Shown in pieces: positions 1 to 11,769 of a stretch of DNA of 64,000 nt. A program made the position numbers and the translations under genes. The stretch comes from Loigolactobacillus coryniformis subsp. coryniformis KCTC 3167 = DSM 20001. GTDB taxonomy: Bacteria > Bacillota > Bacilli > Lactobacillales > Lactobacillaceae. The stretch spans positions 558,001 through 622,000 of the forward strand of contig NZ_CP017713.1 in NCBI RefSeq assembly GCF_002706425.1. The letters are read 5' to 3'. Position 1 is the stretch's first letter. Every line of letters begins with the position of its first letter. Below the pieces are notes generated by a model, which worked only from the letters and a program-made list of their open reading frames with translations, was not told the DNA's origin and searched no databases.

Positions 1-1685
1 GATTGTATGCCAATCAAGATGAAAGAATTTATGGTTGTGGTGAACAAATGTCCTATTTTAATTTACGGGGCAAACATTTTCCTTTATGGACTTCGGAACC
101 TGGTGTTGGGCGCAACAAGGAAACTCTTACAACTTTCTGGGCAGACGTAAAAGATAAGGCTGGAGGAAATTACTACACAACTAATTATCCTGAACCAACT
201 TTTATTTCAACTCAAAAGTATTACTGCCATACAACTTCATACCAATATGCTGATTTTGATTTTAGGAATACTAATTTTCATGAATTACAATATTGGGGTA
301 TCCCAGATCAAGTGATTTTTGAAACAGCAGATAATTATATTGATTTAGTTGCTAAACTAACTAATTTGTTAGGCCGGCAACCTGTATTACCTGAATGGAC
401 GGATAATGGGGCTTTATTAGGTGTTCAAGGTGGTTCAAAACGAGTTGAAGAAATTACCCAAAGAATGCTTAAAAAAGGTGTTAAATTAGCGGGAATATGG
501 TGCCAAGACTGGGAAGGTATTAGAATGACAAGTTTTGGTAAACGTCTATTTTGGAATTGGGAATCAAATGAAGAACTGTATCCAAACTTAAAAGAGAAAA
601 TAAAAGCTTGGAAAGGTAAAAATTTAAAGTTTCTTGCATATATCAATCCATATGTTGCTAATGATACAGAAATGTATAAAAAAGCGGATACGATGGGATT
701 CTTTGCTAAAAATAAGGCTGGAAATACTTATTTAGTTGATTTTGGTGAGTTCTATTGTGGCGTCGTTGATTTTACAAATCCCCAAGCATTCTCATGGTTC
801 AAAAGTATCATCAAGAAGAACCTTATTGATATTGGAGTTGTTGGTTGGATGGCTGATTTTGGCGAATATCTACCAACCGATATCGTGTTGAATGATGGAT
901 CTAATCCAATGGTTGCTCATAATGAATGGCCAATGCTGTGGGCTAAATGTAATTATGAAGCAGTTAAAGAGTCTGGAAAATTAGGCGAAGTTGTTTATTT
1001 TATGCGTGCGGGTGCAACGGGAAGTCAAAAGTATTGCACGTTACTCTGGGCAGGGGATCAGAGTGTTAATTGGAGCCTAGATGATGGACTTGCTTCGACA
1101 ATTCCTGCAGCTTTATCAGCAGGAATGACTGGGAATGGATTAAGTCATAGTGATATAGGTGGATATACTAGTTTGTATGGAAATATTCGCTCCAAAGAGT
1201 TATTCATGCGCTGGGCAGAAATGGGGAGTTTTTTACCTTTTATGCGTACACATGAAGGAAATCGCCCGTCCGAAAATTTTCAAGTGTACGATGATGATGA
1301 AGCTATAGATCATTTTGCAAAATGCACTAATGTATTTGTTGATTTAACGGAATATCGTCATAAAATTATTGAAGAAAATGCAACTAAGGGAACTCCAGTT
1401 CAAAGACCGTTATTTATGCAGTATGAAAAAGATGATGAAGCTTATGAGGTTCAGTATGAGTACTTATTTGGACCAGATGTTTTGGTTGCACCGGTATATG
1501 AAGAAGGTAGGACAGATTGGTCTGTCTATCTACCAAATGATGAATGGATTCATCTTTGGAGTGGTAAAGAATATTCTGGTGGAGAAGTGAATATTGATTC
1601 ACCATTAGGAAGAATTCCAGTATTTTATCGTAAAAAGTCTCGATTTAGCGATTTATTTAAAAGCATAACTAAAAAATATCAATAA
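1..1685 (+). CDS. yihQ: Sulfoquinovosidase, GH31 family (5' end outside window)
   Basis: Retaining alpha-glycosidase predicted to release sulfoquinovose (SQ) from sulfoquinovosyl glycerol or lipids. Frame is open from the window edge (first full codon at base 3), giving 560 residues. From memory of E. coli YihQ (678 aa) the alignment runs with a constant offset of 120, so about 120 N-terminal residues are missing. Every key YihQ residue falls in place: SQ-binding Gln (visible residue 168, in IWCQDW), Arg 181, Trp 184 and Tyr 388, nucleophile Asp 285 (WMADFGEY) and acid/base Asp 352 (WAGDQ). This separates it from ordinary alpha-glucosidases and xylosidases. No signal peptide can be judged. 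First gene of a module with the sulfonate exporter and SQ transporter downstream. Its TAA stop lies at the IS982 insertion point but is intact. Confidence 0.93.
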   Translation, partial: LYANQDERIYGCGEQMSYFNLRGKHFPLWTSEPGVGRNKETLTTFWADVKDKAGGNYYTTNYPEPTFISTQKYYCHTTSYQYADFDFRNTNFHELQYWGIPDQVIFETADNYIDLVAKLTNLLGRQPVLPEWTDNGALLGVQGGSKRVEEITQRMLKKGVKLAGIWCQDWEGIRMTSFGKRLFWNWESNEELYPNLKEKIKAWKGKNLKFLAYINPYVANDTEMYKKADTMGFFAKNKAGNTYLVDFGEFYCGVVDFTNPQAFSWFKSIIKKNLIDIGVVGWMADFGEYLPTDIVLNDGSNPMVAHNEWPMLWAKCNYEAVKESGKLGEVVYFMRAGATGSQKYCTLLWAGDQSVNWSLDDGLASTIPAALSAGMTGNGLSHSDIGGYTSLYGNIRSKELFMRWAEMGSFLPFMRTHEGNRPSENFQVYDDDEAIDHFAKCTNVFVDLTEYRHKIIEENATKGTPVQRPLFMQYEKDDEAYEVQYEYLFGPDVLVAPVYEEGRTDWSVYLPNDEWIHLWSGKEYSGGEVNIDSPLGRIPVFYRKKSRFSDLFKSITKKYQ

Positions 1686-1692
1686 TTATGTT

Positions 1693-2675
1693 ACGTGTGG
1701 TGCTAGTTTGTAACATTTAGAAATTTAACAAAAAAGTCCAACCCAGTTAGACTCATAAGTGACAAAACTTAAAAGGAGTAATAACTGTGTTGAACCACCT
1801 CAAGTTTAAGCAAAATCGTCACGAATTACAAGTTAGTTTCCATTACTTTTACCAGTTATGTTCATTGCTTTATCAGCGTTATTGTCCGCGTAGCGTCATT
1901 GAGCGGCGCAACGTTGAACATACTAAAATTACTGATATTAAACTTTTAGCTTTACTGTGCTTACAAGTCACACTGGGAATTCAATCGCAACGCCGCTTCT
2001 ATTATCTGATGGCAGCGTTTATGCCGCGGCAAATGGTGGTATCACGTTCACGTTTCAACCGCCGCGCGCAACAATTACTGGCAGTAGTCAATGCCATTCG
2101 CTCAGGTATCACTAAGGATTATGCTCATTCGGGCGACCTAGCGATTATCGACAGTTTACCCAACCCACTATGTGCCAAAGTTCGTAATTTCAGAGTTAGA
2201 ATTTTTGCTGGGAAGGCCAACATTGGCTATAATGCCACCAAGAAAATGCCATTTTATGGGTTTAAAACCCACATGGTCGTCACGGCTAATGGCTATATTC
2301 TGAATTATGTGATCACGGCAGCCTCAGTTCATGATGCTAAGGTAGCGCCTGAGCTAATTAGCGGTTGTCCTTGTCCCAATATTTTGGCCGATGTTGGTTA
2401 TGTTGGGAAAAAACTCAAGACCAGTTTTAGGGCCCTAGGCTATAACTTATGGACGCCTTATCGTTCTAATATGAAAGGTGCTAAACAGCATAATAAGCGT
2501 CAACTCAAGGCGTTACGGCGGACAATAGAGTCACGCTTTTCAATTTTAGCCCAGCAATTTGGGATTGAAACCAATCTCACCCGTAGTCTATTTGGTTTTC
2601 AATTAAAGATTGAATTGACGATATTGGTATACAATTTAGGCTTTTTTGATTTTATGACGAACTAGCACCACGCGT
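1693..2675 (+). mobile_element. IS982-family insertion sequence with 9-bp target duplication
   Basis: Complete 983-bp element. Terminal inverted repeats read ACGTGTGGTGCTAGTTTGT at the left and, as reverse complement, ACGCGTGGTGCTAGTTCGT at the right. The 9-bp target AATTATGTT is duplicated at 1684-1692 and 2676-2684. The duplication includes the last two bases of the sulfoquinovosidase stop codon, so the ORF keeps its TAA. Without the element the exporter start would lie only about 25 bases after that stop, so the IS splits a former operon. Contains one intact transposase. Confidence 0.95.
1787..2665 (+). CDS. IS982-family transposase
   Basis: DDE transposase of 292 aa, usual length for IS982, starting at GTG preceded by AAAAGGAG. 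The DDE_Tnp_1-type core shows IIDSLPNPLC (first Asp), the YGFKTHMVV segment and the LADVGY Asp followed by the RRTIESRF Glu region. It fills the element and has no internal stop, so it looks active. GC-richer codon use than the exporter gene next to it fits an independent origin. Confidence 0.92.
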   Translation: MLNHLKFKQNRHELQVSFHYFYQLCSLLYQRYCPRSVIERRNVEHTKITDIKLLALLCLQVTLGIQSQRRFYYLMAAFMPRQMVVSRSRFNRRAQQLLAVVNAIRSGITKDYAHSGDLAIIDSLPNPLCAKVRNFRVRIFAGKANIGYNATKKMPFYGFKTHMVVTANGYILNYVITAASVHDAKVAPELISGCPCPNILADVGYVGKKLKTSFRALGYNLWTPYRSNMKGAKQHNKRQLKALRRTIESRFSILAQQFGIETNLTRSLFGFQLKIELTILVYNLGFFDFMTN

Positions 2676-2702
2676 AATTATGTTATTTGAAAGTAGGTCG
2701 TA

Positions 2703-3446
2703 ATGGATAATATAATAATTTCTATCGCGATTTTTTGTTTGGTTATTATCTGTTCCAATATAATTCAGGGAATTACTGGGTTTGCAGGTACTTTAATAGC
2801 AATGCCATTTTTAATTATGTTAGTGGATTTAGAAACTGCCAAGCAGGTTTTAAATCTACTAGGAATTTTGGCAAGTTTGATGATTGTTGTTAAAGACTAT
2901 AAATTAATAAAAAAAAAGCAACTTCTAATAATTCTATTTTGGATGACAATAGGGCTAATCATAGGAATGATAATTTACAAAATTGCACCTAGAAGAATAT
3001 TGTTAATTATTTTTCCGCTATTTGTTTTAGCAGTAGGTATTAAAGGTATTTTGAAAAATAATAATGGGACTACGGTTGACTCAAATAATGATAAGACAAC
3101 AATTATCGATGCCCTTTTGTTATTATTTGCAGGGATCATACACGGTTTATTTGTAGCAGGTGGGCCATTATTAGTTATTTATGCCACAGAAAAAATAATG
3201 GAAAAGAATTCTTTTCGTGTGACATTATCTGCAGTTTGGATTTTTCTAAATAGTATTATGTTGATTCAAGCGATTACAGCCAATACTATAACAGTTTCAA
3301 TATCAAAATATATGTTAATTTCGATTATACCAATGTTTGCTGGTGTAATTATTGGTAATTATCTGCTAACTAAGTTAAGTCAACGATTTTTTATGAAGTT
3401 ATCATATACACTATTGATTTTGTCAGGTATTAGTTTATTGCTGTAA
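2703..3446 (+). CDS. TauE/SafE-family permease, probable sulfonate exporter
   Basis: Hydrophobic 247-aa protein with about eight membrane helices in two halves separated by a polar loop near residues 121-133. The N-terminal QGITGFAGTLIAMPF motif and the second-half GIIHGLFVAGGPLL motif are typical of the TauE/SafE (DUF81) family. In sulfoglycolysis clusters this family exports the C3 sulfonate end product (sulfolactate or dihydroxypropanesulfonate). The placement between a sulfoquinovosidase and a YihO-like transporter supports that role; the actual substrate is inferred. Strongly AT-rich compared with the core genome. IS982 lies immediately upstream and IS30 downstream, so it may have lost cotranscription with its partners. 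Confidence 0.85.
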   Translation: MDNIIISIAIFCLVIICSNIIQGITGFAGTLIAMPFLIMLVDLETAKQVLNLLGILASLMIVVKDYKLIKKKQLLIILFWMTIGLIIGMIIYKIAPRRILLIIFPLFVLAVGIKGILKNNNGTTVDSNNDKTTIIDALLLLFAGIIHGLFVAGGPLLVIYATEKIMEKNSFRVTLSAVWIFLNSIMLIQAITANTITVSISKYMLISIIPMFAGVIIGNYLLTKLSQRFFMKLSYTLLILSGISLLL

Positions 3447-3469
3447 CTCTATTTTATTTACACGCGCGT

Positions 3470-4628
3470 TTTATAATCAAGTTAGCCAAATACTTTTAGC
3501 TAATTGATAAAATAAAAAACACCAAGACAAATCTCTGTTATCATTGATGTTCCTACACAAACAATGAAAGAGGTTATTGTCTTGATGCAAGAACAGAATA
3601 CCACAGTCAGAAAAAAAGGTCAGCACCTAACTTCGTTTGAACGAGGCAGAATTGCTACGCTGCACAGCCAAGGCTATTCCAATCGTGCAATTGCCAGAGC
3701 GCTTAATGTTTGTCATCAAACAATCAATAATGAATTGTGCCGCGGCGAGATCGACCAAGTAAAAAAAGTGAATGGTCAACGCCAATATTACGCTGTATAC
3801 TCACCAGAAACAGCACAAGCTAAGTACGAAGCTAATCGAGCCCACTGTCATCGGCCTTTGAAACTCGTCGGTGTCGCTGATTTTATCGACTATTTTACGA
3901 CTCATTTGCGTCAAGATGGTTGGTCGCCTGATGCAGCAGTAGGACGGGCCAAACTTGAAGGCTTATATCAACCTGAGGAGATGGTCTCGACCAAGACGCT
4001 ATACCACTATATTGATGCCCAGTTACTTGAAGTCCGTAATCTTGATCTACTCGAAAAAACGCGCCACCGTGCTAAACATCATCACTCGATCAAGCACAAG
4101 CGTCTGGCCGGACGGAGTATTGATGAACGGCCTAAAAGTATCGACCAGCGCCAAGAGTTCGGCCATTTCGAATTGGACACCGTGGTGGGCAAGCGCAACG
4201 GTCAAGAGAGTGTGATCTTAACGCTGATCGAGCGTCAATCCCGCTGCCAAATTCTACGTTTGATCGATGGTCGTGATGCCGATTCAGTCAACTATGAGCT
4301 GGCCAAGATCTGTCAAGAATACGGATCAATCATGAAGTCAGTTACTGCCGATAATGGCGCTGAGTTCTCGGAAGTTGGCGCTGTACTTACCGGTGTCGCT
4401 GACCTTTATTATGCCCATCCATATCGTTCCTCTGAGCGTGGGACTAACGAAGCGCATAATCGAATGATCCGCCGCGATGTACCCAAGGGTCTATCCATGG
4501 ATATTTTGGGTCCTCATGATATCCAAGCAGTTGAGTCAAAGCTAAACAATTTACCGCGCCGGCAAACTGGCTATCAAACACCCAAAGAGCTTTTCTCCGC
4601 TGCTTCCGCCGGTTAAGTTAAGTCCATA
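3470..4628 (+). mobile_element. IS30-family insertion sequence (ends approximate)
   Basis: An IS30 transposase gene with short non-coding flanks sits between the exporter and the transporter genes. I could not resolve convincing terminal inverted repeats or a target duplication, so the borders are estimates: the element starts after base 3446 and ends before the small ORF at 4633. Confidence 0.6.
3585..4616 (+). CDS. IS30-family transposase
   Basis: Transposase of 343 aa from ATG 3585, chosen because AAAGAGG lies about 12 bases upstream; an earlier in-frame ATG at 3564 precedes that ribosome site. N-terminal HTH_38-like region (LTSFERGRIATLHSQGYSNRAIARAL) is followed by an rve/DDE core with ELDTVVG, TADNGAEF and RGTNEAHNR supplying the two Asp and the Glu. 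Intact, with no stops. Distinct from the second IS30 transposase at 51346, which has different sequence throughout. Confidence 0.92.
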   Translation: MQEQNTTVRKKGQHLTSFERGRIATLHSQGYSNRAIARALNVCHQTINNELCRGEIDQVKKVNGQRQYYAVYSPETAQAKYEANRAHCHRPLKLVGVADFIDYFTTHLRQDGWSPDAAVGRAKLEGLYQPEEMVSTKTLYHYIDAQLLEVRNLDLLEKTRHRAKHHHSIKHKRLAGRSIDERPKSIDQRQEFGHFELDTVVGKRNGQESVILTLIERQSRCQILRLIDGRDADSVNYELAKICQEYGSIMKSVTADNGAEFSEVGAVLTGVADLYYAHPYRSSERGTNEAHNRMIRRDVPKGLSMDILGPHDIQAVESKLNNLPRRQTGYQTPKELFSAASAG

Positions 4629-4632
4629 AAAT

Positions 4633-4770
4633 ATGAATATTAATGAAAATACTGATTTAATAGGATTTATCGTGTGGCTAATTTGTTCTTGCAATTTGGG
4701 TATTTTATTTACATCTCTCATCATGATAATTCTAAAAGTTATGGAAAGGATGAACTTTAATGGATATTAA
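4633..4770 (+). CDS. Small one-helix membrane protein upstream of SQ transporter
   Basis: Short ORF of 45 codons overlapping the transporter start by 11 bases. Layout: polar N-terminus (MNINENTD), one hydrophobic helix about residues 9-34, then a basic tail. The size, topology and overlap resemble the OadG-related small subunits annotated beside some sodium- or proton-coupled sugar transporters. The overlap suggests translational coupling. No good ribosome site is seen upstream, perhaps because the IS30 insertion replaced it. I do not recognise the sequence as a characterised protein; it may be a chance ORF. Confidence 0.4.
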   Translation: MNINENTDLIGFIVWLICSCNLGILFTSLIMIILKVMERMNFNGY

Positions 4771-6160
4771 AGCACAGAATGTTGAGGAGCCAACGGAATT
4801 TCCAAAGGTTCTTAGTTTGAAAGAGAAGATTGCCTATGGTGTGGGTGATTTAGGCAATAATTTTCTATTCGATATGGGTCAATTATATTTACTGAAATAT
4901 TTCACGGATGTTATTGGGCTGCCCGCAGCGGCAGCAGGCGGTGTTTTTGCTATTGCAAAGATATGGGATGCTTTTGCAGATATAACGGTCGGCACTTGGG
5001 TGGATAATCGAAAAAAAATTGGAAAACGGGGTAAATTTCGACCGTTTATATTATGGGCATCATTGCCTTTGGCGCTATTGTTGATTGCAAACTTTGCTGT
5101 ACCAGACTTTTCTATTACAGGTAAACTGATTTGGTCGTATATTACCTATATGATTTTTGGTACTGTTTATAGTATTTCAAATGTGCCGTTTGGATCAATG
5201 CAACCGTCAATGACAAAGAATAGCGATGAAAGATCTGAATTGGCCTCTTGGCGTAATATAGGTTCTAATTCAGGTGTTTTAATTGCGACTGTTGCATTTA
5301 TGCCTATTGTATTAATGTTTCCAACTGAGAAAATTGGTTATACTATTACAGTCGTCTTTTTTGCTATTGCTGGTGTAGCTTGTCAGTTATTTTGTTATAA
5401 AAACGTTAAAGAGAATTATCAAGTATTACCTAAGGATCCAGTGGGTGAGAAGCGTAGCATTAGAGAAATATTTTCAGGATATAAAGCAGTATTTAAAAAT
5501 GGTCCATTATTAATTCTCTGCTTGGCCAATTTATTTACGTTTTCTGCTTACAATGTTAAATTAGCAGTTCAATTCTATTTTGCGCAATATGTATTACATG
5601 ATATAAAAATTGTTTCCTATATGAGCTTTTTCACAGTTGGTTTTTCAATTTTAGCAGCAGTAGTAATGCCGTCAATTGTGAAAAAAATTGGGAAAAAACA
5701 TACTTATATTTTAGGAAGCCTTATCTGGCTTATTTCTGATTTAATTGGATTCTTTGTAACTAACTCAGGACTGACATTTGCAATTTTTACAAGCATCTCA
5801 TATTTTGGTAATGGTATTCTTACTGCTTTGAATTGGGCGCTTATTTCTGATGTTGTGGAATATGGGGAATGGAAAACGCACGTTCGTTCAGAAGGAATTG
5901 TTTATTCTTCATATACTTATTTTCGCAAGTTAGCAACGGCCGCTGCTGGTTTTATCCCAGGCGTGATTCTGTCTGTTGTTGGGTATGTTCCTAATCATGA
6001 ACAAACAGCACAGGCACTACTAGGTATTAGAGGAATTACCTTTATTTATCCTGTTATTGGTGCGGCACTTACAATAATATTAATGTTGTTTTATCCAATT
6101 ACTGAACAGAAGTATTCTGAAATTATTGCAGAATTGAGAACAAGACACCAAAATGATTGA
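4760..6160 (+). CDS. yihO: GPH/MFS sulfosugar:cation symporter, YihO-like
   Basis: Twelve-helix transporter of the glycoside-pentoside-hexuronide family, 466 aa, with GGAAAGGATG upstream of ATG. Matches E. coli YihO, as I recall it, along its whole length: LKEKIAYGVGDLGNN start, GKFRPFILWAS, SMQPSMTKNSDERSELASWR, the KLAVQFYFAQYVLHDI segment and ALNWALISDVVEYGEWK near residue 380. YihO and YihP import sulfoquinovose or sulfoquinovosyl glycerol. With the sulfoquinovosidase and the TauE exporter this completes an uptake/hydrolysis/export set. Substrate specificity between SQ and its glycoside cannot be read from sequence. Confidence 0.85.
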   Translation: MDIKAQNVEEPTEFPKVLSLKEKIAYGVGDLGNNFLFDMGQLYLLKYFTDVIGLPAAAAGGVFAIAKIWDAFADITVGTWVDNRKKIGKRGKFRPFILWASLPLALLLIANFAVPDFSITGKLIWSYITYMIFGTVYSISNVPFGSMQPSMTKNSDERSELASWRNIGSNSGVLIATVAFMPIVLMFPTEKIGYTITVVFFAIAGVACQLFCYKNVKENYQVLPKDPVGEKRSIREIFSGYKAVFKNGPLLILCLANLFTFSAYNVKLAVQFYFAQYVLHDIKIVSYMSFFTVGFSILAAVVMPSIVKKIGKKHTYILGSLIWLISDLIGFFVTNSGLTFAIFTSISYFGNGILTALNWALISDVVEYGEWKTHVRSEGIVYSSYTYFRKLATAAAGFIPGVILSVVGYVPNHEQTAQALLGIRGITFIYPVIGAALTIILMLFYPITEQKYSEIIAELRTRHQND

Positions 6161-6219
6161 TAAAAAATGAGTATATTCAATTAACTAGGTATAAATTGTC
6201 CCTAATGAGGAATGGTAAT

Positions 6220-6543
6220 ATGATTAAAACCGATATAGCTACAAATTTAATTAATGAGATTGAACATTTATTAGGCCAGGCAAATGAACTTTGCAACTCA
6301 GTAGTCATGAATAATACGCTAATTCAAAGCCGATTAATTCTTCTAAAGTTGCAGGAGCTTATTGTTGATACGGATAATGATCAACTTATGAAGGCGTTTA
6401 TTGAGTTTTGTGCATCATTTGATAAATACAGTGATGAAGCTTTTATTATTATAAACGAGCCTTTATTTCGTGATTATGATAATTTTAATAATAGATTCAA
6501 GGAGTTTATGTCTGCTTCTAAAGAGCTCAGGATATCCTTATAA
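6220..6543 (+). CDS. Hypothetical helical protein after SQ transporter
   Basis: Predicted 107-aa acidic, largely helical soluble protein, not recognised. Start chosen at ATG 6220 because ATGAGG lies upstream; the frame is also open back to a TTG at 6157 that overlaps the transporter stop but has no ribosome site. No Cys-rich, HTH or membrane motif is visible. Position directly behind the transporter and before a strong terminator suggests it is the last gene of the SQ module. Low-GC like its neighbours. Confidence 0.6.
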   Translation: MIKTDIATNLINEIEHLLGQANELCNSVVMNNTLIQSRLILLKLQELIVDTDNDQLMKAFIEFCASFDKYSDEAFIIINEPLFRDYDNFNNRFKEFMSASKELRISL

Positions 6544-8213: not shown

Positions 8214-8872
8214 ATTTTATACTCTCGGAAACTAAGGGAGGCAACTTTTTAGCAGAAGCAACATTACCTAAGTGGAAAGAAAACGTCGTATACTTTGTTT
8301 TTGTCGTTGCTGTTATTGGTATGCTTTTCCAAGGTAAAATTGGAGATGCTGGTTATGCAATTGCAGGACTCTCAGTGGGCGTTATTCTTGTAATTGGCGT
8401 TTTGAACTTTGATGAGATTCGCGATGCAATAGCAGCCCCAATTATTCTGATGTCCGCTGGTGTCATTGGTGTTGCAAATGCTTTAGGTAGTACTGGTTTA
8501 ACGAAACTGGTCGGTAAAACTGTTGCCGGACTGCTTGGTACTAATATCAGTGCTTTTGCCTTAGTTTTTATTTTCTGTATCCTGACGAGTTTATTAGCAA
8601 CTCTGACTGGCACTAATATTGGAACTGTTTATGTCTTTGCACCTCTAGTTATTGCTACTTGCCACAGCCTTGGTTTTGATCCTAGGGCGGCTGCTAGTGC
8701 AGTAGTTCTTTCTGCATGGTGTGGGCATTTTCTGCCAATCGATGGGATGCCAGCTTTAATTCTTGGTACCGAGAAATATTCGGCTAAAGAGTTCTGGAAA
8801 TTCACGATCCCACAGTATTTTATACGGTTACTTTTCCTGACGGTTGGGTCACTCTTAGTCTTTCCGGCGTGA
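8214..8872 (+). pseudogene. 3' half of SLC13/anion-permease-type transporter
   Basis: Frame is open from the IS256 border to the TGA at 8870-8872. About 219 codons encode roughly five or six membrane helices with a GTNIGTVYVFAPLV segment and SAWCGHFLPIDGMPALILG. This arrangement fits the C-terminal half of SLC13/DASS or related ArsB/NhaD-type carriers, usually 400-450 aa. The N-terminal half is absent because the reading frame runs into the IS repeat. An internal ATG at 8321 is unlikely to rescue function. Substrate unknown. Confidence 0.65.
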
Positions 8873-9092
8873 GTATTGCGAATGCAAGTGATCGTTACTT
8901 ATCTTAAGATTAAGGGATACGTTTAAATACGGTGCTTTTCATTATAAATTAGTATTTACAGCGATTCTTTAAAATGTGAAATTTATTTAAATTCGACTAC
9001 CTACTGGTTGGCAGTTATCATGTTTCTGCCAAATGCTGGTAACTTTCTTAACTTTTAAATCCATTCGCCACCAATTTCACATTTAACTTCAG

Positions 9093-9118
9093 ACTCAGGA
9101 CAAAACCTGAGTTTTTTG
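9093..9118 (+). terminator. Terminator after transporter remnant
   Basis: Stem ACTCAGG / CCTGAGT with a 6-base loop followed by TTTTTT. It lies about 220 bases downstream of the truncated transporter. I see nothing coding in 8873-9092. Confidence 0.75.
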
Positions 9119-9250
9119 GTATCTGAAAAACATAAATATGTACTGATTAATACAGCTATAAATAGGTAAGCACCCAATAACAGACCGACTATAAATAGCG
9201 TATCGGCTGCGGTATGATAGCCTCATCATAAGAAATGGTGAGGTGTTTTT

Positions 9251-9430
9251 ATGCTCAATAAACCGGAAATCGTTCAAGTTAAGCTGGACGACGGTCAACG
9301 ACAGCCAAGTCCAATATCAAAGGCCTTTCAAATCAAACGTAATGAACATGAAACAATCATTGTTTACAATCATATCAATGGATATATTTTAGACGCCCTA
9401 GTCAAGGCGGTGTTCACTGATGCTCATTGA
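9251..9430 (+). CDS. tnpA: IS66 accessory protein TnpA (short form)
   Basis: Small ORF of 59 codons with GGTGAGGTG ahead of ATG. It overlaps tnpB by 11 bases (the ATGCTCATTGA junction), the translational coupling usual in IS66 elements. It is shorter than Gram-negative IS66 TnpA proteins and I recognise it mainly by position. The C-terminal segment GYILDALVKAVF may be the dimerisation part. Confidence 0.7.
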   Translation: MLNKPEIVQVKLDDGQRQPSPISKAFQIKRNEHETIIVYNHINGYILDALVKAVFTDAH

Positions 9431-9779
9431 TTTACGCCAACTCAAGGGTATTTATTTGATTTGTGGCAAAACTGACTTGCGGCGTGGAATCGATGGTTTA
9501 GCCGCTACGATCACTGATCAGTATGAACTTGACCCCTACAGCCGGGCGTTATTTCTTTTTTGCGGTACCCGTAAAGATCGTTTTAAGGCCCTATATTGGG
9601 CCGGTGATGGCTTTCTCTTACTTTATAAACGAATCGAAAATGGCCGCCTGCAATGGCCAACCAATCAAAATGAGGTGAAGCGACTACACGCCAAACAATT
9701 ACAACGTTTATTATCTGGCTGGGGGCTTGAAGCAACCGTGCATCAGACCAACCGACCCAAAAAAGCTAGGCTTAGCTGA
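9420..9779 (+). CDS. tnpB: IS66 family accessory protein TnpB
   Basis: 119-aa protein with the IS66 Orf2 signature: YLICGKTDLRRGIDGLAA near the N-terminus, LFLFCGTRKDRFKALYW in the middle and GFLLLYKRIENGRLQWP after it. Required for IS66 transposition together with TnpC, but its biochemical role is not settled. Intact; ends 29 bases before the GTG codon of the tnpC frame. Confidence 0.93.
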   Translation: MLIDLRQLKGIYLICGKTDLRRGIDGLAATITDQYELDPYSRALFLFCGTRKDRFKALYWAGDGFLLLYKRIENGRLQWPTNQNEVKRLHAKQLQRLLSGWGLEATVHQTNRPKKARLS

Positions 9780-9826
9780 CTAATCATGGTACACTCAGGA
9801 CAATCCTAGTGAATGAAGGCGATTCC

Positions 9827-11380
9827 ATGGCAACGACCGTCGAACAACTTAAGCAAGCCCAAGCGCAGAATCGTGAGTTACTCAAAGAAATAAAGGCCTT
9901 GACCGCAACTGTCCAAACTTTGACGGAAGAAGTCGCCTTTTTTCAGCGCCAACTTTTTGGCAAGCATTCGGAAAAAATAACTGATCCTAACCAGTTATCC
10001 CTATTGGCAGATGACAATGGGGTTTTTACCGACCCAGAGCAAACTGGGAACCAAAGCGAAACGACAGTAACAACAGTCGTCCATAAGCCAAAGCGTAAGC
10101 GTTGCGAATCAGTTGATCCCAATCTACCGATCGAGACCACCGTGATCCGCCGCGAGAACTTGAGTTGCGATCATGGTCATCAACTGATACCAGTGGGCAA
10201 GCACTTTGTGCGTGAAGTCGTGCATCAAATTCCTGGTCGCCTCTATCGCGAACAGATCTTTGAACAAACGTATAAATGTGCCGCTTGTGAAACGAATGAT
10301 GGCGTTTCACACTTATATCAGGGGACTGCGCCGCAGGCGCTGATCCCCCATAGTTTAGCGACCTCATCGTTAGTCGCTGAGTTGTTGTACCAAAAATATG
10401 CCTTAGGGACACCACTTTATCGTCAAATGAAAGCCTGGCGGCGGGCTGGTTTGATTTTAAGTGAAACGACCATGACGAATTGGGTGATCAAAGCAGCGAC
10501 GATCGTTCAACCGCTGTATACATTACTGCACGAACAATTATTAACGCAACCTTACCTGCAAGGCGATGAAACACCGTTTCAAGTCTTGCGTGAGGTGGGT
10601 AAAACCGCGCAAAGCAAGTCTTATATCTGGATTGCTCGGAGTATTCGCTTAGCTGCGCATCAAGTTGTCTATTATACGTATAGCGACAATCGTGCCGGCA
10701 AAACTGCCCAACAACTTTATGGTGATTTTACGGGTGTCCTACAATGTGACGGTTATTCTGGCTATAATCTACTGGGCGCGACGGTGACGCGGGTCGGTTG
10801 TTGGGCGCATGTGCGGCGAAAATTCTTCGATGATGCCTGCAAGATCAAGGGGCAACCGACGATAACGCCACCCTTAAAATTGCTTGATCAAATGTTTCAC
10901 CTAGAACGGGGCTGGCGTGATCTAACACCAACCAAGCGCAAAGAACTGCGCCAGGAACAATTAAAGCCAGTGATCAAGCAATTTTGGCAGTGGTGTGATC
11001 AAGCGGTGGCCACCCCGAAATCACGTTTAGGTCGTGCTTTGACCTATGCCCAAAACCAACGGTCTGCACTTGATCGTGTGCTCGATTACGGCGAAATTGA
11101 TCTAAGCAATAACGCCACCGAACGAAATGTGAAGTCCTTCGTGATCGGACGCAAGAATTGGCTTTTCGCCACCAGTCCCGCAGGGGCACAGGCTAATGCG
11201 ATTTGGCTGACCTTGATTGAAACTGCGAAGGCTAATGGATTGGATCCACGGCAATATCTCGAATATCTGCTTAATCAATTAGGGCAACTACCCGTTTTTC
11301 CAACTGAGGAAGAATTGGCGGTCTATTTGCCATGGCAACAAGTGCCAGACAAAAAGGTTTGGCGTGATCAAGAAGCGTAG
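9827..11380 (+). CDS. tnpC: IS66 family transposase TnpC
   Basis: Transposase of 517 aa. ATG 9827 is preferred over GTG 9809 because GAAGG lies about 8 bases ahead. Order of parts: leucine-rich coiled coil (about 1-45, LKQAQAQNRELLKEIKAL), basic linker, zinc-binding segment with CDHGH and CAAC, then the DDE core with LQGDETPF (Asp), LQCDGYSGYN (Asp) and NNATERNVK (Glu), and a C-terminal IS66 domain. No stops or shifts, so the element should be mobile if tnpA and tnpB work. Confidence 0.94.
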   Translation: MATTVEQLKQAQAQNRELLKEIKALTATVQTLTEEVAFFQRQLFGKHSEKITDPNQLSLLADDNGVFTDPEQTGNQSETTVTTVVHKPKRKRCESVDPNLPIETTVIRRENLSCDHGHQLIPVGKHFVREVVHQIPGRLYREQIFEQTYKCAACETNDGVSHLYQGTAPQALIPHSLATSSLVAELLYQKYALGTPLYRQMKAWRRAGLILSETTMTNWVIKAATIVQPLYTLLHEQLLTQPYLQGDETPFQVLREVGKTAQSKSYIWIARSIRLAAHQVVYYTYSDNRAGKTAQQLYGDFTGVLQCDGYSGYNLLGATVTRVGCWAHVRRKFFDDACKIKGQPTITPPLKLLDQMFHLERGWRDLTPTKRKELRQEQLKPVIKQFWQWCDQAVATPKSRLGRALTYAQNQRSALDRVLDYGEIDLSNNATERNVKSFVIGRKNWLFATSPAGAQANAIWLTLIETAKANGLDPRQYLEYLLNQLGQLPVFPTEEELAVYLPWQQVPDKKVWRDQEA

Positions 11381-11396
11381 ACCCTTGGCTAATTTA

Positions 11397-11459
11397 AAAT
11401 CAAACAGCGCTACTGATTCGAACCAAAAAGTTTCGGATCAGTGGCGCTGCTTTTGATTA
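11397..11459. repeat. Long hairpin at 3' end of IS66
   Basis: Imperfect inverted repeat. AATCAAACAGCGC with ACTGATTCGAAC pairs with GTTTCGGATCAGT and GCGCTGCTTTTGATT, separated by a short A-rich loop. It probably acts as a transcript end or as shielding against read-through inside the element. Only a weak T run follows. Confidence 0.6.
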
Positions 11460-11769
11460 CGGTTGTTTATTGGGTGCTTACATAAATAGTCAGTTGTACA
11501 CGGATTCAGTCACCGCATCCTGCTTAGTTTGTGTTCCATTATGCAAATAAGGGAAAATACCAATTAAAAAATGCGAGCAAAAAAAGATTACAAACAAAAT
11601 GGAATCGGTGATGACAGCACTCTCATTTACCCCCTTCGGCATAAAATTTTACCCCATTAAGCGAAGAAATTGACCAAGTTCTGCAAAAGAGATTGACCAG
11701 CCCTAAGGTACCTCTTGTATAATGTGATAGCGCATACATTGCGTAATTATATTATACAGGAGGTTTTCT

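Follow-up and report, generated by a model that had tools for sequence, protein, structure and literature searches.

The window analysed here, a 64,000-nucleotide stretch of the Loigolactobacillus coryniformis subsp. coryniformis KCTC 3167 genome (G000:C1:558001-622000, within a single contig of 2,951,508 bases), together with the 20 kb upstream of it, very probably holds a chromosomal operon for fermentation of sulfoquinovose (SQ), a sulphur-containing sugar found in green plants, through the reductive sulfo-TAL pathway, with 2,3-dihydroxypropanesulfonate (DHPS) as the predicted product. The pathway genes lie in one orientation on the + strand over ~11.5 kb, and every pathway reading frame is full length. 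Their order from 5' to 3' is ROK regulator, sulfofructose transaldolase (SftT), DUF4867 protein (SqvB/SftX), sulfoquinovose isomerase (SftI), reductase, GH31 sulfoquinovosidase (SQase), a copy of the insertion sequence (IS) IS982, TauE-family protein, an IS30 copy and GPH-family importer (Table 1). In the published sulfo-TAL pathway, SQ is converted to sulfofructose, a three-carbon unit is transferred to glyceraldehyde-3-phosphate, and the sulfolactaldehyde formed is turned into DHPS and exported (PMC11489063, PMC11659671, PMC8397734, PMC12890257). The enzyme set found here matches this pathway (PMC11489063, PMC11659671, PMC8397734). Judged by its genes, the set is complete for reductive sulfo-TAL in a lactobacillus; the pathway itself is known from other bacteria of gut and soil, and the host group and the variants described below are new as far as the literature searched shows.

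On the observed gene content and residues, we propose a route in which the activities, direction of transport, use of NADH and regulation follow families characterised elsewhere. The GPH symporter would import SQ or SQ-glycerol, the GH31 sulfoquinovosidase would release SQ, the DUF4867 protein would perhaps open the ring, and SftI would convert SQ to sulfofructose. SftT would pass a three-carbon unit to glyceraldehyde-3-phosphate, yielding fructose-6-phosphate for glycolysis and sulfolactaldehyde, which the reductase would turn into DHPS with NADH. The TauE protein would export DHPS, and the ROK repressor probably controls the operon.

The first-pass annotation, made from the letters of the window, had read the GH31 protein as a sulfoquinovosidase and not a generic alpha-glucosidase, and our analysis points the same way. 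The frame is visible at 3..1685 (560 aa) and runs on upstream; its start was taken to be an ATG 342 bases before window base 1 (L004:1658), picked within the mechanical open reading frame L004:1613-3685. The visible part scored 901.5 bits against PRK10426 (cut-off 553). Among PDB sequences, the six best matches reached 683-881 bits, four of them named YihQ, one 'Glycosyl hydrolase, family 31' (8r56) and one 'Alpha-glucosidase' (6pnr), and the next match fell to 155 bits. We took the defining residues of YihQ to be Gln262, Gln288, Arg301, Trp304 and Tyr508 together with the catalytic Asp405 and Asp472. All seven were identical in an alignment with E. coli YihQ: Gln142 in the visible numbering corresponds to YihQ Gln262, and Gln168, Arg181, Trp184, Asp285, Asp352 and Tyr388 stand exactly where the first-pass annotation had placed them. 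Across 79 other SQase rows, the checked residues were invariant except Arg301. At this position, Arg occurs in 16/16 Lactobacillaceae rows and 21/63 others, and the remaining 42/63 non-Lactobacillaceae rows, found beside sftT, carry Gln. SQase identity was highest to lactobacilli (62-64%).

The core enzymes, which the annotation had suspected upstream of the window, lie directly there in the same orientation: transaldolase, DUF4867 protein, isomerase and reductase. The genome thus does hold sulfoglycolytic enzymes, and their type is sulfo-TAL. The best solved match of SftT by sequence is 8bc3, 'BmSF-TAL' (322.6 bits, full length); two further PDB matches named only transaldolase scored 316-320 bits, and the next 160. 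SftT is 67-68% identical to the transaldolases of many loci that also carry SQase and SftI homologues, and its Lys89 is invariant in 90/90 rows. The DUF4867 protein scored 236 bits against PF16161, above the gathering score of 28.7, and 185.8 bits against solved 9gyy; a structure of Bacillus megaterium SqvB of this family has been described, with its role given as unproven (PMC11968277). The isomerase type of the pathway (SftI/SqvD) is FucI-related; SftI of this genome matched no PDB sequence at E 1; its Glu288, Asp290, Asp313 and His328 are invariant in 80/80 rows. The reductase is a member of the 3-hydroxyisobutyrate dehydrogenase family, and E. coli sulfolactaldehyde reductase 6sm7 was only its 18th PDB match. 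We name it a predicted sulfolactaldehyde reductase because of its gene context and its 43-54% identity to (clostridial) homologues beside sftT elsewhere; its VKSK and YVGG motifs are common to most of 7 such rows.

The two transporters that the annotation had seen beside the GH31 gene, a TauE-type exporter and a YihO-like importer, also held up as family assignments. The TauE family, into which the frame 2703-3446 falls, is broad; the protein shares 47-50% identity with TauE proteins encoded close to sftT at three Caloramator loci. The GPH symporter is 40-46% identical, in pieces, to two stretches adjoining yihQ in the E. coli yih cassette, and 55-61% identical to the symporter of other Lactobacillaceae clusters where this is whole. 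Its probable substrate is sulfoquinovose or the glycerol glycoside of this sugar. The AT-rich palindrome immediately 5' of sftT may be a ROK operator, and a hairpin at L003:14519-14547, 3' of the upstream aldolase gene, may end the preceding unit. A promoter scan of the sequence gave 8 hits where shuffled sequence would give 10.6, a terminator scan reported none, and the upstream 20 kb had no Rfam match that reached the gathering score.

Table 1. Features of the operon and its surroundings. Plain coordinates refer to the window; L003 is the 20 kb upstream (G000:C1:538001-558000), all of it before window base 1, where the window coordinate equals the L003 coordinate minus 20000.
Feature	Coordinates	Strand	Size or score
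ROK regulator	L003:14708-15964	+	PF00480 64.3 bits; NagC-like 90.5 bits, cut-off 650
AT-rich palindrome	L003:16034-16062		14-nt arms, 86% complementary
SftT sulfofructose transaldolase	L003:16076-16741	+	221 aa
DUF4867 protein (SqvB/SftX)	L003:16751-17407	+	218 aa
SftI sulfoquinovose isomerase	L003:17411-18757	+	448 aa
Sulfolactaldehyde reductase, predicted	L003:18760-19644	+	294 aa counted from GTG
GH31 sulfoquinovosidase (YihQ/SftG)	1..1685 plus 342 bases upstream	+	~675 aa
IS982 transposase gene	1787..2665	+	NF033520 257 bits, cut-off 130; between SQase and exporter
TauE-family protein, probable DHPS exporter	2703..3446	+	PF01925 92.9 bits
IS30 transposase gene	3564..4616	+	NF033563 244 bits, cut-off 80; between exporter and importer
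GPH-family cation symporter	4760..6160	+	TIGR00792 462 bits, cut-off 231
128-aa open frame	6157..6543	+	no family match

Several results weigh against a reductive sulfo-TAL operon. SftT lies below the cut-off of the fructose-6-phosphate aldolase model (202.8 against 246 bits), and the sole NCBIfam match of SftI, sulfoquinovose isomerase NF048012, covers the full length at 576.5 bits, below the cut-off of 700. The reductase scored 150 bits against the sulfolactaldehyde reductase model NF012005 (cut-off 348); three other family models gave it more (174-201 bits, all below cut-off), the top one being 2-hydroxy-3-oxopropionate reductase (201 bits, cut-off 341), and its identity to YihU is just 28.6%. 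The genome also encodes, at other loci, two glycyl radical enzymes that might in principle act on DHPS, and two insertion sequences interrupt the operon, so that importer and exporter may need other promoters. This last point feeds an unlikely but possible reading, that the enzymes are right and the operon is silent or failing, with IS982 and IS30 separating exporter and importer from the promoter and the trait being lost in an IS-rich genome. Upstream, an IS701-type transposase gene appears to divide a regulator that has PRD and EIIA domains (L003:8179-8769 / 8836-10209 / 10196-11536), and the frame of an oxidoreductase is broken into two pieces, L003:5409-5954 (PF01408) and L003:5984-6355. 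In related clusters the SQase is in pieces (L050, L056, L061) or lacks its N-terminal part (L065). However, all pathway frames of this genome are full length, both IS copies are intergenic, and their transposases read in the operon direction, so read-through is possible. Words of 8 bases common to both flanks of each IS copy are consistent with target duplications, the flanks being AT-rich and the comparison uncontrolled.

That a related sulfosugar is the main substrate, handled by the same chemistry, is highly improbable: SftI and the reductase are divergent (best identity 49% and 54-55%) and the SftI tree gives the protein no supported position, but the YihQ residue set is complete and transaldolases 67-68% identical to SftT come from many loci with SQase and SftI homologues. 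It is scarcely credible that the genes form a generic alpha-glucosidase operon plus a transaldolase with no sulfosugar link. Although the NCBIfam GH31 model is named just 'alpha-glucosidase' and the TauE and GPH families are broad, among solved structures the closest to the GH31 protein and to SftT are YihQ enzymes and a sulfofructose transaldolase, and SftI, DUF4867 protein and reductase accompany the GH31 gene. Extension of the pathway from DHPS by the glycyl radical enzymes was also rejected: one is pyruvate formate-lyase (PFL) and the other of PFL2-3 type, and against the two models of DHPS dehydratase both scored below cut-off (best 563 of 1000). The PFL2-3 type gene (L154, G000:C1:468841-470802), ~80 kb away from the cluster, has a fructose-6-phosphate aldolase gene and a DeoR-type regulator as neighbours.

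The same 397 Lactobacillaceae genomes were searched with SftI, SftT and SQase. SftI was found at E 0.001 in 43/397 genomes (21 at identity of at least 36%), SftT at E 1e-30 in 29/397 (18 at identity of at least 59%) and SQase at E 1e-60 in 18/397. SQase and a close SftT occur in exactly the same 18 genomes, all of which also have SftI; such an overlap of two 18-genome sets would arise by chance with a probability of 1.6e-31 under independence of the genomes, a condition that does not hold. These 18 genomes belong to 6/40 genera and include 1/8 genomes of the window's genus. Three of them (G294, G297, G307) show contamination of 6-8%, and under the quality limit the count is 15/377. Three further genomes (G147, G170, G276) hold only a close SftI. 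Among 395 genomes sampled from the order, SftT was found at E 1e-60 in 3, all Lactobacillaceae, with Enterococcus gilvus evidently outside the sample. A scan for relatives with an 8-row SftT alignment gave at least 559 relatives, and the best 80 named loci include records of Ligilactobacillus ubinensis, four of Levilactobacillus and four of Secundilactobacillus; an earlier scan by SftI gave 22 stretches, 0 confirmed. Related clusters in named Lactobacillaceae agree with the annotation's view that the genome is of lactobacillus type.

We fetched stretches of 14-20 kb around all 17 other clusters (L049-L065). SftT, SftI, GPH symporter and an aldehyde dehydrogenase were present in 17/17, SQase in 15/17 (on another contig in the remaining two) and the DUF4867 protein in 13/17; the reductase, TauE and ROK proteins of the operon had homologues in 0/17 of these stretches at E 1e-8. 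The aldehyde dehydrogenase, scanned in two of the 17 clusters and in L066, resembles succinate-semialdehyde dehydrogenases below all cut-offs shown; from its gene position we infer a sulfolactaldehyde dehydrogenase, which suggests sulfolactate as product. In one of them (L050:11378-14992), the SQase is broken by an ISL3 transposase gene, and the trait may therefore be decaying in some strains.

Two genomes of the window's own genus apparently hold a sulfo-EMP2 set instead of sulfo-TAL. One (G170, L066:7050-14777) carries an SftI homologue together with a class II aldolase, a kinase of the phosphofructokinase (PFK) family, an aldehyde dehydrogenase of the same type as above and an SsuABC-like sulfonate transporter; the other (G147, L067) carries the same genes at 73-88% identity. 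The L066 kinase scored 372 bits against the pyrophosphate-dependent (PPi-PFK) subfamily (cut-off 273), and a PF00365 kinase with a PF01116 aldolase makes up the described sulfo-EMP2 enzyme set (PMC9594981). In that pathway the two act as a PFK-family sulfofructose kinase (SqiK) and a class II SF-1-phosphate aldolase (SqiA). Neither genome showed an SQase or a close SftT in the search of the 397 genomes. In a genome of another genus (G276, L068), only isomerase, aldolase and binding protein were found in the 20 kb fetched, and in a third genome of the same genus (G123), the kinase lies near a contig end. With the L066 kinase as the single query, no relative was found in the genome under study at E 1e-30, so that the sulfo-EMP2 kinase was not recovered there. 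The class II aldolase of this genome (L003:13498-14460), ~38% identical to SqiA-like genes, adjoins a fructose-type phosphotransferase system IIABC, which lies upstream of the operon behind the PRD/EIIA regulator (L003:8179-14460 in all).

Trees were quick maximum-likelihood trees with SH-aLRT support only, and in those of SftI, SftT, reductase and importer the window's row was flagged for its long branch. The SQase grouped with 10 Lactobacillaceae rows (SH-aLRT 100) and the importer with 17 (SH-aLRT 99), whereas the reductase fell in a 7-row set with non-Lactobacillaceae rows (SH-aLRT 99, on a long branch), and SftT and SftI had no supported place. The operon may be a mosaic; gene presence is the firm part of this picture. 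We also considered another source for SftI, as identity favours Bacillaceae (44-49%) over lactobacilli (38-42%), and a grouping of the window's SftI with those of the sulfo-TAL Lactobacillaceae was rejected (p 4.5e-8). When the three SftI-like rows of the sulfo-EMP2-type clusters were added, the 23 rows formed one side of a branch (support 46.8), and the rejection apparently came from those three rows; a transfer is not claimed.

The operon can be set beside known systems by description. Eubacterium rectale has a DHPS-forming reductive sulfo-TAL pathway, also reported in Clostridium symbiosum, with SQase, SftI, SftT, sulfolactaldehyde reductase, DUF4867 protein and exporter (PMC8397734, PMC11968277); the operon has the same set, with its reductase and exporter as predicted members. 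Unlike E. rectale, the host here is one of the Lactobacillaceae, the importer groups with those of other lactobacilli, and the SQase is nearest to theirs. Enterococcus gilvus, with an extended sulfo-TAL pathway, has SqvU, YihQ, SqvD, SqvA, YihU and TauE in one neighbourhood (PMC11489063). None of its adjoining HpfGHDE, HpfX and HpfYZ was recognised among the open frames listed for the upstream 20 kb and for the window up to 12 kb, some of which were family-searched. With the oxidative, sulfolactate-forming sulfo-TAL of Bacillus megaterium and B. aryabhattai, the operon shares its SftI (nearest to Bacillaceae by identity), an SftT of up to 68% identity and the DUF4867 protein, but it has a reductase in place of the sulfolactaldehyde dehydrogenase. 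The Levilactobacillus, Secundilactobacillus and Ligilactobacillus ubinensis clusters share SftT, SftI and GPH symporter, and differ by their aldehyde dehydrogenase and their more distant SftI.

The annotation's description and coordinates of the parts inside the window proved correct. The 128-aa frame that follows the importer matched no family at E 0.001 (the best Pfam match at E 10 is below its cut-off) and has no homologue in the 17 related Lactobacillaceae clusters, and it may not belong to the operon. Further on, a 183-aa piece (8321-8872), with transposase-like frames nearby, matches only the C-terminal part of a DASS anion symporter model and is probably a truncated anion transporter. 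We considered and rejected a plasmid origin of the cluster, which sits in the 2.95-Mb single contig. The SQase matched 37 plasmid records, all at <60% identity, with no Lactobacillaceae among the 10 organism names listed, and 24 kb of the window gave no match to plasmid records. Of the 97 plasmid records matched by a 9.7-kb stretch rich in IS copies, 59 are from Lactiplantibacillus, 11 from Loigolactobacillus and 27 from others; among the matches listed, 17 have at least 90% identity, 9 from Loigolactobacillus backii and 1, the best-covered of these, from L. coryniformis. These matches make Loigolactobacillus a likely genus, although such elements pass between species. The 16S stretch matched 535 plasmid records, and those listed, at 88-93% identity, came from other genera.

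That SQ use had not been characterised in Lactobacillaceae, as the annotation stated, agrees with the literature searched, in which no published study of a sulfoquinovose pathway in lactobacilli was found; supplementary tables may already list lactobacilli. The word start 'lactobacill' occurred 0 times in the main text of eight sulfoglycolysis papers, a count that misses names such as Levilactobacillus. Nearby reports concern a Ligilactobacillus sequence variant that was relatively enriched with SQ while its absolute number fell and was judged an unlikely SQ degrader (PMC12330013), sulfoquinovosidases among the GH31 activities listed for Lactobacillus genomes (PMC11790720), a prevalence of GH31, a family for which sulfoquinovosidase is named, in metagenomic data from green olives dominated by Lactobacillus (PMC8674285), and sulfoglycolysis only as a predicted pathway of the chicken gut microbiota (PMC12967013).

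Overall, we give even odds to the wider proposal that Lactobacillaceae are overlooked SQ fermenters with three variants: reductive sulfo-TAL in the genome studied here, forming DHPS; oxidative sulfo-TAL in 17 genomes, forming sulfolactate; and a sulfo-EMP2 that lacks SQase but has a PPi-PFK-like kinase and an ABC importer of sulfonate type, in two genomes of the same genus and, in part, one of another. If this is true, the operon would be a mosaic of lactobacillus SQase and importer with a clostridial-type reductase and exporter. DHPS or sulfolactate would then be set free in plant fermentations, silage and beer among them, and if lactobacilli use sulfoquinovose, food and feed fermentations of green plants become sites of their formation; DHPS is in turn converted to sulfite and hydrogen sulfide by Bilophila (PMC12890257, PMC8397734). 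Lactobacilli would be easily grown, food-grade hosts for study of the pathway, and a comparison of reductive and oxidative variants within a single family would be a test of what determines how sulfolactaldehyde is used.

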